A DNA stretch of 10,934 nt, from NCBI GenBank assembly GCA_017616575.1, contig JAFZXW010000053.1:1-10934 (forward strand), in the 5' to 3' direction. The stretch comes from Candidatus Methanomethylophilaceae archaeon. GTDB lineage: Archaea > Thermoplasmatota > Thermoplasmata > Methanomassiliicoccales > Methanomethylophilaceae. Each line of letters opens with the position of its first letter. The stretch's first letter is position 1. Under the pieces are notes generated by a model. The model was not told the origin of the DNA and made no database searches. It was given only the letters and a program-made list of their open reading frames with translations. A program made the position numbers and the translations under genes. This document shows positions 1 through 10,934 of the stretch, piece by piece.

Positions 1-697
1 CGCCCACATAGTGCAGGCATTCGTCCGTGAACTTGTTCACGGCAAATTCCGTACGGGCCTTGTCTTCCTCCAGAAGTTCATTGAGGCGGCAATATTCCTG
101 TGGGTTAAGGAACTGGAATGCCAGATTCTCCAGCTCTACCTTGAGGCTGAAAAGCCCCAGCCGGCCCGCCAGGGGCGCATAGAAGAACCTTGTCTCGCTC
201 GCTATCTTCCAACGCTTCTGCGGCTTCAGGCTTGACAGGGTCCGCATGTTGTGGAGGCGGTCAGAGAGCTTCAATAGGAGGACGCGTATGTCTCCCTTCA
301 CGGAGCCAAGGATATGCTGATAGTTGTCTACCTGCTTCTTGTTCGGCTTCGTAACCGCCTTCACCAGGAACGCCACGTCCTCCCCGAAGCGGTCGCGGAT
401 ATCCTCCGCGGTGATGGCGGTGTCTTCCACCACATCGTGCAGCAGGGCTGCCGCTATGATGGCGGCGTCCTTCTGCATCATCTCCCGCACAAGGATCTGG
501 GCGACGTTCAGCGGGTGCAGGATATATGGCTGGCCGCTCTCGCGCTGTTGCCGGGCGTGCGCCCCCCGTGCGAGGAGGAAGGCGTCCTCGATCAGCGAGA
601 GTTCCCGGGCTGTCATATCGCCGGGAAGGGCCGCGAAGAGCTCGTCATGCGTCCTGCGCACGAGCTCCTCATAAGATAATTGCATGCTGTTGTCCAT
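1..697 (-). CDS. RelA/SpoT family (p)ppGpp hydrolase/synthetase, N-terminal part (cut by window edge)
   Basis: The 232 visible residues form the HD-type hydrolase domain of a RelA/SpoT homologue, the cytosolic enzyme that degrades and usually also makes the stringent-response alarmone (p)ppGpp. Visible motifs are AH-R-QQRESGQPYILHP (R52, H61), HDVVEDT (H87, D88, E91, D92), a VTKP turn near 115-118, and KLSDRLHNMRTL (about 143-154). These are the metal-binding and substrate-binding signatures of an active hydrolase. They are followed by the linker APLAGRLGLFSLKVELENLAFQFL that leads into the synthetase domain. The synthetase, TGS and ACT parts lie beyond the left edge. The stretch between VTKP and KLSDRLHN is shorter than in typical Rel enzymes. 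I chose the ATG at 697; an in-frame ATG at 685 is an alternative, and the leader is A-rich without a clear Shine-Dalgarno. The gene is transcribed away from the rest of the window and is probably housekeeping. The family call is firm; rel versus spoT naming is not settled. Confidence 0.93.
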   Translation of the reverse strand, partial: MDNSMQLSYEELVRRTHDELFAALPGDMTARELSLIEDAFLLARGAHARQQRESGQPYILHPLNVAQILVREMMQKDAAIIAAALLHDVVEDTAITAEDIRDRFGEDVAFLVKAVTKPNKKQVDNYQHILGSVKGDIRVLLLKLSDRLHNMRTLSSLKPQKRWKIASETRFFYAPLAGRLGLFSLKVELENLAFQFLNPQEYCRLNELLEEDKARTEFAVNKFTDECLHYVG

Positions 698-740
698 AGC
701 TGTTTTTGTGTTCACGCCTTTCCAATGTGTTGAGACAAAT

Positions 741-2758: not shown

Positions 2759-3177
2759 CCCCGCTCGGGGAGATGGCCCTCGAGGTGGAGAGGGCCGGGC
2801 TGCAGCCCAGGATGATCGACGGGGATGACTTCGCCTTCTGGTTCACCTACCAGATGGTCACCATCATCTGCTACTATGACAGGGAGGACTCCGTCGTCGG
2901 ATTCGCGAACGTCAGCGCGGAAGCCGTCCCGGAGGGGAACCGGGCGGAGATCCTCAGCCTCTGCAACAGGATCAACCGCGTCTCGGGATGCGGGAACTGT
3001 TACATCATGCCATGCGGCAACCTGGTGATGCAGTACAGGAACCGTATCCGCCGCAAGGGCGACTTCCGGAGGCTCCTGGGGGAAGCGCTGGAGAGCATCT
3101 CCGGGATGAAGCGGGAGTTCCTCCTCGCCGCCATGGAAAAGAAGGCACTTGATAAGGACACATACTTCAAAAAGTAA
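2755..3177 (+). CDS. Small YbjN-like protein with cysteine cluster (140 aa)
   Basis: This 140-residue soluble protein overlaps the preceding gene by four bases (ATGA). The order of elements is again YbjN-like: an N-terminal helix, strands (FAFWFTYQMVTIICYYD, VVGFANVS), the proline-led helix VPEGNRAEILSLCNRIN (about 58-74), strands around 82-93, and a C-terminal helix (FRRLLGEALESISGMKREFLLAAM). Unlike its neighbours it has three close cysteines, CGNC-YIMP-C at 79, 82 and 87, with others at 39 and 70. These might bind metal or form disulphides, but no known motif is matched. The open frame extends upstream through the preceding gene, but that part is not plausible protein, and the ATG at 2755 is the natural start. 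The role is probably as a binding module for other products of the operon (inference). Confidence 0.75.
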   Translation: MTPLGEMALEVERAGLQPRMIDGDDFAFWFTYQMVTIICYYDREDSVVGFANVSAEAVPEGNRAEILSLCNRINRVSGCGNCYIMPCGNLVMQYRNRIRRKGDFRRLLGEALESISGMKREFLLAAMEKKALDKDTYFKK

Positions 3178-3184
3178 GAAAGAT

Positions 3185-4228
3185 ATGAACACAACCGCAA
3201 AACGCATCCTCAGCATCACCTGGAAGGTGGGCCTGGGACTCGCCGGCCTCGCCGCCGCCGTCTTTGTTTTCCTCCTCATCTGCGTCTGGTATGAGAAGAG
3301 CCACGGCCGCAACTTCTCCAGGGACCTCACCCTCAGCAAGGACATCGTCGTCAGGGGGTTCAATGACAACACCGTCCGTGTCTGGGACAAGGCCGCCTGC
3401 AAATACACCACGGGGAAGCTCCGCTGGGTCGCGGGCCCGCCCAGGCGGGACAGCCTGACGGTCTTCTGCAGCAAGGAAGGCCGGCGCGGCTTCCTCAACG
3501 TCAGGACCGGCAGGATCGTCATCCCCGCGCAGTACAGGAAGGCCTGGCAGTTCTCGGAAGGGCTGGGCGCCGTCGTGTGGGACGAGCATGTCGGGTTCAT
3601 CGACAGGAAGAACCGGCCGGTCATCGAGTACGTCATCCCCTTCGAGAAGGGGTTCGACTACATCTTCAGGGACGGATACTGCACCGTCAAGTACTGGGAC
3701 GTGGACAAGTACCGCTATGCCGTCTTCCGGAAAGACGGCAGGATGGTCCTCGGATGGGACTACCGGTTCATCGACGAGCCCGACGGGAACGGCTACCGCG
3801 TGGCCGCCAACGACGACGGCTACTGGCTGTTCGACAAGGACTTCCGGCCGGTCTTCCCCGAGCCCGTCGACTACATGGAACTGGCACGCGGCTACAGCGG
3901 CGTGTATGTCACCAAGGGCCACGTCAAGCAGCTCCTGGACTTTGACGGGACTGTCCTCGAACCGTTCATCATAGACGATACCTACCGCCTCAAGTACAAG
4001 ACGAAAATCCATTCCGAGGACCCCGACGAATACGAGCTGGACCCGGACGTCGTCGTGTACCGGGTCGGCCGGTGGGAAGGGCTCATGGACGCCCGGACCG
4101 GGAAGGTCATCACCCCGGCAGAGTACTGGGGCTTCGAGATGGTCTCCAAGGACCTGATCCGCGCGCAGTTCGGCCACAATGACGAGGGCGTCGTGATGGA
4201 CAAGCGTGGGAAAATCGTCAAACAGTAA
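3185..4228 (+). CDS. Membrane-anchored WG-repeat protein (347 aa)
   Basis: An N-terminal basic stretch (K6, R7, K14) is followed by one hydrophobic span (about 15-36, VGLGLAGLAAAVFVFLLICVW). A large beta-rich region follows, made of about six or seven degenerate WG-type repeats. Each has a strand ending in G-F/L-x-D/N, a turn with R-x-G or K-x-G, and a strand that runs on to a tyrosine or proline: GFLNVRTGRIVIPAQY, VGFIDRKNRPVIEY, VFRKDGRMVLGWDY, GLMDARTGKVITPAEYWG, GVVMDKRGKIVK. WG repeats are common in Bacteroidota and are thought to fold as beta-propeller-like or solenoid surfaces for protein or ligand binding. The positive-inside rule places the repeats in the periplasm (inference). The ATG at 3185 follows an A-rich leader 7 bases after the previous stop; an in-frame start at 3149 would overlap the upstream gene. 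Some annotators may call it simply a WG repeat-containing protein. Confidence 0.88.
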   Translation: MNTTAKRILSITWKVGLGLAGLAAAVFVFLLICVWYEKSHGRNFSRDLTLSKDIVVRGFNDNTVRVWDKAACKYTTGKLRWVAGPPRRDSLTVFCSKEGRRGFLNVRTGRIVIPAQYRKAWQFSEGLGAVVWDEHVGFIDRKNRPVIEYVIPFEKGFDYIFRDGYCTVKYWDVDKYRYAVFRKDGRMVLGWDYRFIDEPDGNGYRVAANDDGYWLFDKDFRPVFPEPVDYMELARGYSGVYVTKGHVKQLLDFDGTVLEPFIIDDTYRLKYKTKIHSEDPDEYELDPDVVVYRVGRWEGLMDARTGKVITPAEYWGFEMVSKDLIRAQFGHNDEGVVMDKRGKIVKQ

Positions 4229-5443: not shown

Positions 5444-6097
5444 ATGAATGGGGATATGCAGCGCAACTGCGCGGGCTACAACGGCTCTCTCGACGAGATC
5501 CTTCGTTTCCTGGGGCAGGACGCGGGCGTGAACCGGACGGTCGGGCTGCTCAGGGAAGCCGTGTCCGAGTACTTCCGTGAAGCGGGGCGGCAGGGTATCT
5601 CCATCCATGTAGAAAAACAAAAGCGATCAACTATGAAACGAATTCTTTTTGTCTGCACCGGCAACATGTACCGCAGCGCCGGTGCGGAGTTCATCCTCCG
5701 GCGGAAGCTCTCCGAAGCCGGGATCGACGACTGGGCGGTGGATTCCGCCGGGACGATGGAGCTGTGGCGGGCCACCCGCCCGGAGGCCTTCGGCCGCATC
5801 CTCGCCGAGCATGGCTATGACTTCGGCGGCGTCACCCGGTACGTGTATGACGCCGACGCCGCCGGGGCGGACCTCATCCTGGTCATGGAGCCCCAGCACC
5901 TCTTTGACCTCCGGTGCCTTGTCCCCGAGAGCGGATGGGGCAAGATCCACCTGTTCATGGAGTACTGCTTCGGCAGCAAGTCCATCCTGACGGATCCCAG
6001 CAGTTTCTTCAGCGAGGACCTGTACCGCGAGACACGGGATACGCTGGAGCAGGGCTGTGACAGGATTGTCGAATTGATCCTTGACGGTCAGCTCTAG
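5444..6097 (+). CDS. Low-molecular-weight protein-tyrosine-phosphatase family protein, with in-frame N-terminal extension
   Basis: From the internal ATG at 5633 the product is a complete 154-residue LMW phosphatase, the normal family length. The P-loop near its N terminus is C-TGNMY-R-S (Cys8, Arg14 counted from 5633), and the general acid is Asp121 in TDPSSF near the C terminus. These enzymes remove phosphate from protein tyrosine or, in the YwlE branch, arginine through a cysteinyl-phosphate. Two P-loop positions differ from the usual CxGNxCRSP: Tyr replaces Cys before the Arg, and Ala replaces Pro after RS. The position that is Thr in the arginine phosphatase YwlE is Met. The frame is also open for 63 codons upstream, back to an ATG at 5444 only 2 bases after the preceding stop. 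That stretch has coding-like codon use and predicted helices (LDEILRFLGQ, GLLREAVSEYFREAG), but it turns A-rich just before 5633, as a translation leader would. So the start may be 5444 (217 aa) or 5633 (154 aa). Confidence 0.88.
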   Translation: MNGDMQRNCAGYNGSLDEILRFLGQDAGVNRTVGLLREAVSEYFREAGRQGISIHVEKQKRSTMKRILFVCTGNMYRSAGAEFILRRKLSEAGIDDWAVDSAGTMELWRATRPEAFGRILAEHGYDFGGVTRYVYDADAAGADLILVMEPQHLFDLRCLVPESGWGKIHLFMEYCFGSKSILTDPSSFFSEDLYRETRDTLEQGCDRIVELILDGQL

Positions 6098-8748: not shown

Positions 8749-8779
8749 TTGCGTGATAGGATAAAAATTGCTAAATTAG
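8749..8779 (+). promoter_or_regulatory. Weak promoter for the vWA/tubulin-like pair
   Basis: TTG at 8749-8751 is 20 bases from TAAATTAG at 8772-8779, a two-base departure from TAnnTTTG. The 157-base gap 8642-8798 before the vWA gene contains nothing else I can support, only a few short GC-rich inverted repeats such as CCCG/CGGG at 8644-8654. Confidence 0.4.
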
Positions 8780-8798
8780 CGCAATTAACCACAGCACT

Positions 8799-10358
8799 AT
8801 GAAAAAAGCCATTCTGACCACCCTCCTCGCGCTGTCGGCCGTCTGCTTCCCGCTGGGTGCCCAGCCGGGATTCGACGCCCTCCGGGCGGATTATCCGCTC
8901 CTGATGCAGAAGTTCGGCGCGGAGCTCGGCGAGCAGCGTGCCGACTATATCTTCGCCATCGATGTCTCCGGGACGATGGACAAGTACCGGGACACCGTCG
9001 TTCCCGCCCTGGGAGCGTTCTTCCGCTCGCTCCAGGACGGGGATTACGTTTCCATCATCAAGTTCGGCGGCGAAGCCTCGAACGAGGTGGGGAGCGCGGG
9101 CAAGATCGGCGGCGGGACCGTCAGTAACCTCATCGAGAGCGCCGGCCGGATTTATAACAAACCGACGACGTCCTATGAAAAGGAAAAGTACTACAACTGG
9201 ACGGACCTGGACAACATGCTCCATTATCTGGCTGATGACATGCAGCAGATCGGCCGCAACCGGCTCAAGTTCGTCTTCATCATCACGGACTTCGTCCATG
9301 ACCCCTCGCCTTCGCGGAGGGGCCGGGAGGACTGGGACGGCGCTGCCCGGCGGTTCGCGACCGAGCAGTCCGGGAACGACGTGTATGTCTTCGCCCTCCA
9401 GCTTCCCGGCGGAGGACGCGACCTGGAGAAAGTCAGGAATGTCTTCCCGAGGGAATTCAAATTCAGCCATGTGCCCGTCCCCAACGGCCAGGCGCTCTCA
9501 CAGTGGTTCACCCAGCGGAAGAACGCCATCCTCCTGGACAAGTTCATCTCCGTCGTGTCGGGACATATCCGTCCGGCGGAGCTGACCTTCAGCCCGGAGA
9601 TGGATTTCAGCGGCCGTCTCGGCCTCGCCCTGGACTGGACGCCCAACCCCGTCTACGACTGCCTCCGGCTCGACGACATCACCCTGTCTGGGGCCAGGGG
9701 GCTCCGTATGGACGCAGAGCTGCCCGTCACGGTCATGGACGATGCCGCCACCGTCCCTGTCGGCGCGCTGTCGAAGGAGGACGCATCCGTTCTCAAGCCG
9801 TCCCTCCGCCACCTTGACGGGGAGCTGACGCTCCGGGCGAGCTTCGCCGTCCCCTATGAGGACGAGCTCCGCCACCTGGGCTTCGAGGCGCCCTCGCTCA
9901 CCGCAACGGCGCCGGTTACCCGGACGGTCTTTTTCTATCCGCTCCCCTTCTGGCTCTTCTGCACCATCATCGGCCTTATCCTTCTGTACATCATCCTGGT
10001 CATCCGCGCCTTTGCCAGGAACGCCTCGGCCGCATCCCGTATCAACGGCAGGTTCGAAGTGACGGAGGACGGCGCTCCCGTCACCGAGCGCAAGAAAGCG
10101 AACGGGGTCAACAGTGTCGACATCGGCCGGGCGGCCGCCTTCCTTCCCGTTCCCGACTGCCGCTGGAGCATCTCCATCAGCGTCAGGCGCTACAACCCGT
10201 TCCTCCTCTTTTTCAAGTCTCCCGAATATGTCATCGAGCAGACACGCGGCAACGGTTTCCGGGCGAACGGTGTCAAGTGGGGATCCCACCAGAAACCCAA
10301 AATCGCGCCCTATTCCAAAATACTGGTAGGAACGCACGTCATCCGCTGGATTCAATAA
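8799..10358 (+). CDS. Secreted, membrane-anchored von Willebrand factor A domain protein (519 aa)
   Basis: Residues 1-21 form a classic signal peptide (MKKAILTTLLALSAVCFPLGA, cleavage before Q22). A vWA domain follows with a complete metal-ion-dependent adhesion site: D55-V-S57-G-T59, T135 in NWTDLDNML, and D164 in FIITDF. After a beta-rich middle region (about 250-375), one strong transmembrane helix (about 384-402, FWLFCTIIGLILLYIILVI) ends in the basic stop-transfer R403...R407. About 110 residues of mostly beta structure follow on the cytosolic side (GRFEVTEDG, SISISVRRY, KILVGTHVIRWIQ). So the vWA domain should face the periplasm and the tail the cytosol. vWA domains bind protein partners through the metal ion. 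The tubulin-like gene follows 19 bases later and is almost certainly cotranscribed; vWA proteins are recorded neighbours of such tubulin homologues. I chose the ATG at 8799 because it gives the signal peptide. Confidence 0.92.
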   Translation: MKKAILTTLLALSAVCFPLGAQPGFDALRADYPLLMQKFGAELGEQRADYIFAIDVSGTMDKYRDTVVPALGAFFRSLQDGDYVSIIKFGGEASNEVGSAGKIGGGTVSNLIESAGRIYNKPTTSYEKEKYYNWTDLDNMLHYLADDMQQIGRNRLKFVFIITDFVHDPSPSRRGREDWDGAARRFATEQSGNDVYVFALQLPGGGRDLEKVRNVFPREFKFSHVPVPNGQALSQWFTQRKNAILLDKFISVVSGHIRPAELTFSPEMDFSGRLGLALDWTPNPVYDCLRLDDITLSGARGLRMDAELPVTVMDDAATVPVGALSKEDASVLKPSLRHLDGELTLRASFAVPYEDELRHLGFEAPSLTATAPVTRTVFFYPLPFWLFCTIIGLILLYIILVIRAFARNASAASRINGRFEVTEDGAPVTERKKANGVNSVDIGRAAAFLPVPDCRWSISISVRRYNPFLLFFKSPEYVIEQTRGNGFRANGVKWGSHQKPKIAPYSKILVGTHVIRWIQ

Positions 10359-10377
10359 ATAAAAACATACACAAGTT

Positions 10378-10934
10378 ATGGCAGACAAGCATATCTTTAT
10401 CGGCCTGGGAGGCTCCGGTGTGAACACCGTTTCCCGTATCAAGTTCAAGATCTACGAGCGTACCAGGGCCACGGAGATGAAATCCCGCAGGCAGGTCATG
10501 GACGAGACCTACCGCTTCATGTTCATGGACACGGACTCCCGCGACGTGGTGAACGCCAACAGGCTGTACCGCAGCCAGTATGAGGGCGGCCGCGAGGAGT
10601 TCATCAGCAGGAACGAACTGGTGAACCTCGGGGACATGAACCCCGCCTCCATCTACCAGGAGGCGTGCGGCGCTCCGGAGCTGATGATCAACCGTCGCAT
10701 CACCGAAGGCTGCCCCGAGCGCGTCGTCCAATCCATGGAGTACCGCAACCTCTCTTTCGGCGCGGGAGCGCTCCGCCATAAATCACGCCTCGCCTTCGCC
10801 CGCCATGAGGGAGAGTTCTACGAGAAGCTCAAGGCCAATATCGACCAGCTCAACCAGAACCAGATCAACAACGAGCCCAATGTCTTCCACTACTGGGTGG
10901 TCTCCAGCAGCAACGGCGGCACCGGCAGCGGAAC
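10378..10934 (+). CDS. Tubulin/FtsZ-superfamily (tubulin-like) GTPase, N-terminal part (cut by window edge)
   Basis: The 185 visible residues carry the nucleotide-binding loops of the tubulin superfamily in the right order. These are the N-terminal strand and GLGGSG loop (residues 9-14, FtsZ T1-like), FMDTDSRDV (like the NTD loop of FtsZ), GAGALRHKSRLAFARHE (like the GxGxxPxxG region), and the GGTGSG signature (180-185), which binds the phosphates of GTP. The latter is the diagnostic tubulin/FtsZ motif. The spacing is wider than in FtsZ because of a roughly 60-residue insertion (about 55-115). This fits the large tubulin-like families (Pfam Tubulin_2 type) rather than cell-division FtsZ. These proteins are predicted to assemble or act as GTPases in membrane-linked processes. 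The leader is A-rich, typical of Bacteroidota starts, and the gene is in one unit with the vWA gene. The C-terminal GTPase activation and extra domains lie outside the window. Confidence 0.9.
   Translation, partial: MADKHIFIGLGGSGVNTVSRIKFKIYERTRATEMKSRRQVMDETYRFMFMDTDSRDVVNANRLYRSQYEGGREEFISRNELVNLGDMNPASIYQEACGAPELMINRRITEGCPERVVQSMEYRNLSFGAGALRHKSRLAFARHEGEFYEKLKANIDQLNQNQINNEPNVFHYWVVSSSNGGTGSG

Follow-up and report, generated by a model that had tools for sequence, protein, structure and literature searches.

The final two genes of the window (the whole 10,934-base stretch analyzed here, which is contig C158 of assembly G000) lie on the forward strand and encode a vWA membrane protein and the N-terminal part of a tubulin-like protein of the Tubulin_2 (FtsZl1) family. 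Comparison with related loci indicated that gut Bacteroidales have a conserved operon of four to five genes, of which these two represent the first gene and part of the second. The third gene of this operon encodes a protein that one AlphaFold model predicts to have a tubulin fold of its own. Based on these data, we tentatively propose a two-part Bacteroidales tubulin, in which an active GTP-binding subunit would co-assemble with one that has lost the GTP loop and acquired a transmembrane hairpin inside its fold; the filament would thus be an integral part of the inner membrane, with the vWA receptor switching it from the outer side. We regard this proposal as somewhat less likely to hold than to fail.

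A contig scan of genomes with a tubulin alignment produced 51 loci, 50 of them titled Bacteroidales, Bacteroidia or groups within these, and one from a Fibrobacter bin; two Candidatus genera and Paludibacteraceae were placed by a taxonomy check. Clustering of the called genes identified five families in fixed order and on one strand: F2 (vWA), F0 (tubulin), F1, F3 and F4. Wherever both members of a pair had been called they were adjacent and on the same strand (F2-F0 in 48/48 loci, F0-F1 in 49/49, F1-F3 in 49/49 and F3-F4 in 32/32). An earlier note on this DNA had made its reading depend on the vWA and tubulin genes being neighbors in related genomes also, and their adjacency on one strand in all 48 loci indicated that the pairing is beyond chance. 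The set F2, F0, F1 and F3 was complete in 46 of 53 sources (the 51 loci, the window and L003, a locus described below), and all five genes were found in 30. Six of the seven incomplete sources (the window, L003, L006, L013, L017 and L030) were cut by a contig or locus end; in L029 the tubulin gene was lost to an antisense open reading frame (ORF) by the greedy longest-ORF script, and was detected by tblastn. The script also split F3 of L030, and locus ends cut the vWA and F4 genes of L005 and the vWA genes of L028 and L046. L023 and L025 came from one assembly and looked alike.

The genes flanking the operon varied by locus. Of 168 neighbors (up to two on each side, with L025 and L046 excluded), 145 were within 110–800 residues, and the 112 of these that were scanned matched 109 Pfam families, none of which matched more than four neighbors; the commonest domain was TonB_C (4/112). 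In six loci (L014, L015, L016, L017, L051 and L052) a cluster of 21 paralogues, F7, with a median length of 269 residues, was situated before or near the vWA gene, and these paralogues upstream of the operon were confined to one sub-lineage. The genes 5' of position 8799 in the window were considered as operon members and rejected, as the eleven upstream ORFs, a Rel/SpoT-like fragment included, had no tblastn matches in the 51 loci at a threshold of E 1e-3. In the same comparison the vWA protein matched 48 loci (23–61% identity) and the tubulin part matched all 51.

The vWA protein (519 residues, 8799..10358, forward strand) was identified by ORF calling, Pfam, hydropathy and tblastn, and its family was called in 49 loci and the window. 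Its match to the Pfam family VWA_2 was weak (E 5.4e-5, 24.2 bits, under the 27-bit cut-off). Alignment of the family members located a metal ion-dependent adhesion site (MIDAS) motif, D-V-S-G-T, at residues 55–59 (8961..8975), completed by T135 (codon at 9201–9203) and D164 (9288–9290). D55, S57, T135 and D164 were kept in all 47 members with residues at these positions (3/50 were gapped), and position 59 was serine in 27 members and threonine in 20. The N-terminus is hydrophobic (residues 1–19, mean hydropathy 1.51), and a single transmembrane helix at residues 384–402 (9948..10004, mean 2.89) is followed by a tail of about 115 residues (10005..10355), taken as cytosolic, in which N408 and P475 were invariant in 50/50 members. 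The signal peptide and helix were called from hydropathy rather than with SignalP or TMHMM, and the sides of the membrane assigned here are those we infer. Just 5' of the gene is an inverted repeat, ATTGC-N9-GCAAT (8767–8785), which may be a chance occurrence or an operator.

A gap of 19 bases (10359–10377) separates the vWA gene from the tubulin gene (10378..10934, forward strand), 185 residues of which are visible before the contig end. This part matched Tubulin_2 at E 8.2e-13 and 48.8 bits against a cut-off of 27, and reached just 19.6 bits with the FtsZ-type family PF00091, whose cut-off is 33. The T1 nucleotide loop, GLGGSG, occupies residues 9–14 (10402..10419), with G9, G11, G12 and G14 present in all 51 members with residues there. 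The T4 tubulin signature loop, GGTGSG, occupies residues 180–185 (10915..10932) and was likewise kept in 51/51 members with residues there; a motif search found it in 50 of 51 F0 proteins, the exception being L003, which begins 3' of the loop. Thus the features described in the earlier note, from the signal peptide, vWA domain, transmembrane helix and tail to the 19-base gap and both loops, were all present by ORF calling, Pfam and hydropathy, the vWA domain with a weak Pfam match. Its assignment of the second protein to a tubulin family distinct from FtsZ was also borne out. A separate FtsZ was strongly matched in 15 of 16 carrier genomes and weakly in the other, and since the carriers keep an FtsZ, F0 is not the division tubulin.

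The rest of the F0 gene was found by a Tubulin_2 search of the assembly, on the minus strand of contig C167 (locus L003, 2216–4858). It encodes 880 residues, open at the start, and scored 35.1 bits with Tubulin_2; it is followed on the minus strand by F1 (L003 1–2214, 738 residues, open at the end). Residues 1–185 of a 1077-residue relative, P0002, matched the window part at 76% identity and residues 198–1077 matched the L003 part at 70%, which left about 12 residues unaccounted for between the contigs. When the ends of C158 and C167 were compared, no overlap between 10 and 200 bases long was found, and the contigs were left unjoined.

F0 proteins are about 1080 residues long, and 48 of 51 are without a hydrophobic segment. 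The best structural matches of the F0 model were CetZ, BtubA/B and alpha, beta and gamma tubulin, with nearly the whole tubulin chain covered. F0 differs from these tubulins in sequence (9–15% identity in the structural alignments) and in the long helical insertions and C-terminal extension of its model. In the model of P0002, residues 379–645 were mainly helices and residues 983–1071 were also helical, consistent with a long helical part after the GTPase domain. A PDB sequence search with F0 returned two nucleoporin NSP1/NUP62-type chains (E 0.028 and 0.034), which were taken as chance.

F1, the third gene product (812–1229 residues), would be a cryptic second tubulin-fold protein, one that the earlier note had missed. 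As the signature loop GGTG(S/T)G was found in 0/50 F1 proteins, F1 would be a pseudo-tubulin by fold only and not an active tubulin. Its hydrophobic segments, most often two, are situated between the parts of the predicted tubulin fold, and where paired they are likely to form a transmembrane hairpin. A PDB sequence search with F1 gave no matches up to E 10, and none of 95 database relatives of the family found here had a precomputed Pfam domain.

F3, a membrane protein, has a transglutaminase-like domain and by hydropathy is polytopic in most members. Transglut_core was matched under its cut-off in F3 of L007 and L011, and DUF553, which is transglutaminase-like, above its cut-off in F3 of L033 (25.1 bits vs 20.5). 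Longer members often had one degenerate and one intact transglutaminase-like copy. In F3 of L023, L033, L041, L047 and others the copies were in tandem, often with the Cys replaced by Ser or Ala in the first and present in the second, an arrangement that suggests one binding and one catalytic copy. F4 was found in 32 loci, always with one N-terminal hydrophobic segment (32/32), and had weak matches to Zn-protease models, all under cut-off. With NCBIfam no family exceeded its cut-off; the flagellinolysin model reached 22.4 bits with F4 (E 7e-5; cut-off 205). From charge and hydropathy, the F3 domain would lie in the cytosol and the F4 domain in the periplasm.

The function that we favor for the operon is a ligand-controlled, membrane-tethered co-assembly of tubulins under the vWA receptor, a reading to which we give almost an even chance. 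It builds on the gene set, gene order and motifs described above, and on tubulin folds that models predict for both proteins; the membrane topology (from hydropathy), the co-assembly, the functions given to F3 and F4, and the switching by a ligand are what we infer from them. In such a system, GTP-binding F0 would assemble on or with the membrane-fixed pseudo-tubulin F1, which would serve as a non-hydrolyzing anchor, nucleator or cap. Binding of a ligand at the cell surface or in the envelope would be signaled by the vWA protein through its tail, and this signal would switch assembly at the inner membrane. F3 (transglutaminase-like) and F4 (HExxH-type) may process or bind partner proteins on either side of the membrane. 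The output may be a localized alteration, either in the envelope or in a surface structure, or else defense.

Several observations weigh against this reading. The fold of F1 depends on a single AlphaFold model. Foldseek with F1 yielded nothing at an E of 0.001 or lower: the best tubulin had an E of 0.028, and the first row was a bacterial dynamin (E 4.8e-3, probability 0.35). This dynamin, BDLP, was set aside as a long-helix resemblance (root-mean-square deviation 48, probability 0.35). Profile-profile comparison of F0 with F1 (hhalign, with the locus families and with enlarged domain-wise alignments) detected nothing, at a probability below 1%, and 12 of the 50 F1 proteins had just one hydrophobic segment that passed. 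The transglutaminase-like Cys and His pair was found by pattern in 28/50 F3 entries (27/49 loci), and HExxH in 21/32 F4 proteins, with one of the remainder being a cut fragment; therefore neither activity can be general. In addition, the between-protein distance correlations (F0-F1 r 0.975 and F1-F2 r 0.934, with 0/499 permutations as high) are strong and still contain the shared species tree. They were calculated for 35 loci, after five with an uncalled gene (L006, L013, L017, L029 and L030) and three with cut genes (L005, L028 and L046) had been excluded, leaving 43, and eight near-duplicates (F0 less than 5% different) had been removed.

The findings for F1 could also be explained if F1 were unrelated to tubulins and its match reflected a generic resemblance in alpha/beta architecture and long helices, which we judge quite improbable. 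Among the closest known systems is the multicomponent membrane-remodeling system of Makarova and Koonin (2010; PMC2875224), who described the Tubulin_2/FtsZl1 family and predicted vWA-tubulin systems. The earlier note had placed this locus in or near that system, with a distinct GTPase and OmpA-family proteins as further partners; on such a reading the missing parts would be elsewhere in the genome. Both have the same tubulin family (PF13809) with its GTP loops and long helical part, an adjoining vWA gene with an intact MIDAS, and FtsZ also in the carriers, and Bacteroides caccae is in the species list of the alignment figure of that paper, presumably as an FtsZl1 carrier. However, the search for the distinct GTPase was negative for DO-GTPase2 (Pfam), which was found in 0/16 carrier genomes, with a Corynebacterium glutamicum control positive; DO-GTPase1 was likewise found in 0/16, with no control giving a match either. 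The Pfam DO-GTPase families presumably cover the 2010 GTPase. OmpA was absent from the families matching at least two of the 112 neighbors, a count that applies to the flanks, not to the genomes elsewhere, and does not itemize all single-match families. The operon is filled instead by other conserved genes: a predicted transmembrane pseudo-tubulin, a membrane protein of transglutaminase-like type and, in many loci, an HExxH-type protein, and F1, F3 or F4 may be among the unannotated neighbor families of the 2010 paper. Overall, we consider it rather improbable that this locus belongs to the 2010 system.

We give the same low weight to a conflict or immune system related to the DO-GTPase/GAP1-N2 systems, in which tubulin assembly would act as a switch with a threshold, and the effectors would be the protease-like proteins. 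Kaur et al. (2020; PMC7159879) reported membrane-proximal vWA and tubulin operons, with two tubulin genes in Firmicutes, and the Firmicutes operons are the nearest precedent for the tubulin pair. The operons here are also patchy and variable in location. Set against this are the lack of DO-GTPase2 in the carrier genomes and a gene content that is constant and not diversifying. PADLOC on the five components gave no relevant match (its sole row was a weak Cas2e, E 0.015), and no defense family matched at least two of the 112 neighbors, unless the Endonuclease_NS or AAA_14/DUF4143 pairs (two members each) are counted. A role in building or placing a surface structure (a pilus or a machine for secretion or gliding, for example) seems to us unlikely, if slightly less so than the two preceding readings. 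The sole mutant phenotype that we came across for the Tubulin_2 family points in this direction: disruption of Synechocystis sll0445 impaired phototaxis, and Sll0445 was associated with photosystems and with proteins of pilus assembly (PMC9880817). An outward orientation is also predicted for the vWA and F4 proteins. No pilus or secretion family, however, was recurrent among the 112 neighbors, and the partners named for the cyanobacterial protein in that paper, FtsA-like Sll0446 and DivIC-like Sll0447, are unlike those found here.

The assembly containing the window carries McrA, and its contig C207 (L069 3–1220) has a divergent FtsZ-family gene with the motif GGGTGTG beside a gene judged by eye to be a probable archaeal TrmJ-type methyltransferase; together these indicated that the assembly is a methanogen bin. 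The L069 frame seems to overrun the natural gene end, overlapping a gene on the opposite strand. Tubulin_2 was matched at E 1e-6 or better in 2/102 genomes of the archaeal family (this assembly and G062) and in 1/285 genomes of a phylum sample, which was this assembly; at E 0.001 the relative G029 added one weak match (E 9e-4). Based on this rarity, the operon as the methanogen's own was rejected. The match in G062 (G062:C7:10844-11896, L056) was full (E 2.1e-55, in a 1006-residue frame in a locus with a G+C of 0.39), and as G062 has 6% contamination, L056 is either a genuine FtsZl1 of archaea or itself part of a mis-binned contig.

The Rel/SpoT-like fragment (window 2–715) matched all 11 operon-bearing genomes tried, in a frame of 640–850 residues in 10 of them, at best with 51–52% identity over about 200–220 residues. 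Within its own genus 14 of 31 genomes matched, itself included, and the other 13 matches were of 30–42% identity, mostly over about 115–140 residues; the best was to G016 (42% over 165 residues, in a 506-residue frame). A phosphatase at 5636–6094 had a 72% identical relative, P0200. The longest contig was 29,438 bases for P0200, the nearest tubulin relative P0002 and the F1 relative P0163 alike, which suggests that the phosphatase is linked to the operon in their source also. The protein at 3149–4228 had a WG-repeat match above cut-off (32 bits vs 25.6), and among the other genes scanned between 943 and 8247, this phosphatase (listed there as 5636–6097) alone had a Pfam family above cut-off. 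The rarity of Tubulin_2 in the archaeal family and phylum, together with the relatives of the Rel fragment and phosphatase, indicated that C158 and C167 are most likely mis-binned and derive from an uncultured Bacteroidales-type bacterium of similar G+C (0.608 for the window, 0.621 for L003 and 0.616 for the C207 locus). Transfer of the operon into the methanogen is less likely. The Bacteroidota origin suggested in the earlier note therefore stood for the contig, by its relatives, and failed for the bin. The listed contamination of the assembly is just 0.26% despite C158 and C167.

In the open-licence literature, our searches turned up no paper about either the Bacteroidales operon or F1. Whether FtsZl1 is equipped to polymerize was not settled by Makarova and Koonin (2010; PMC2875224), and the F0 model, which matches nearly the whole tubulin chain, answers this as far as prediction can. 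The tubulin-fold model would also give a fold to the F1 family, whose 95 relatives are otherwise without a Pfam domain, and the predicted membrane-inserted pseudo-tubulin adjoins the tubulin gene in every one of the 49 pairs. If our proposal of a two-part tubulin is correct, these bacteria would have a filament fixed to the membrane by its own tubulin-fold subunit, which would be directly testable with two proteins.
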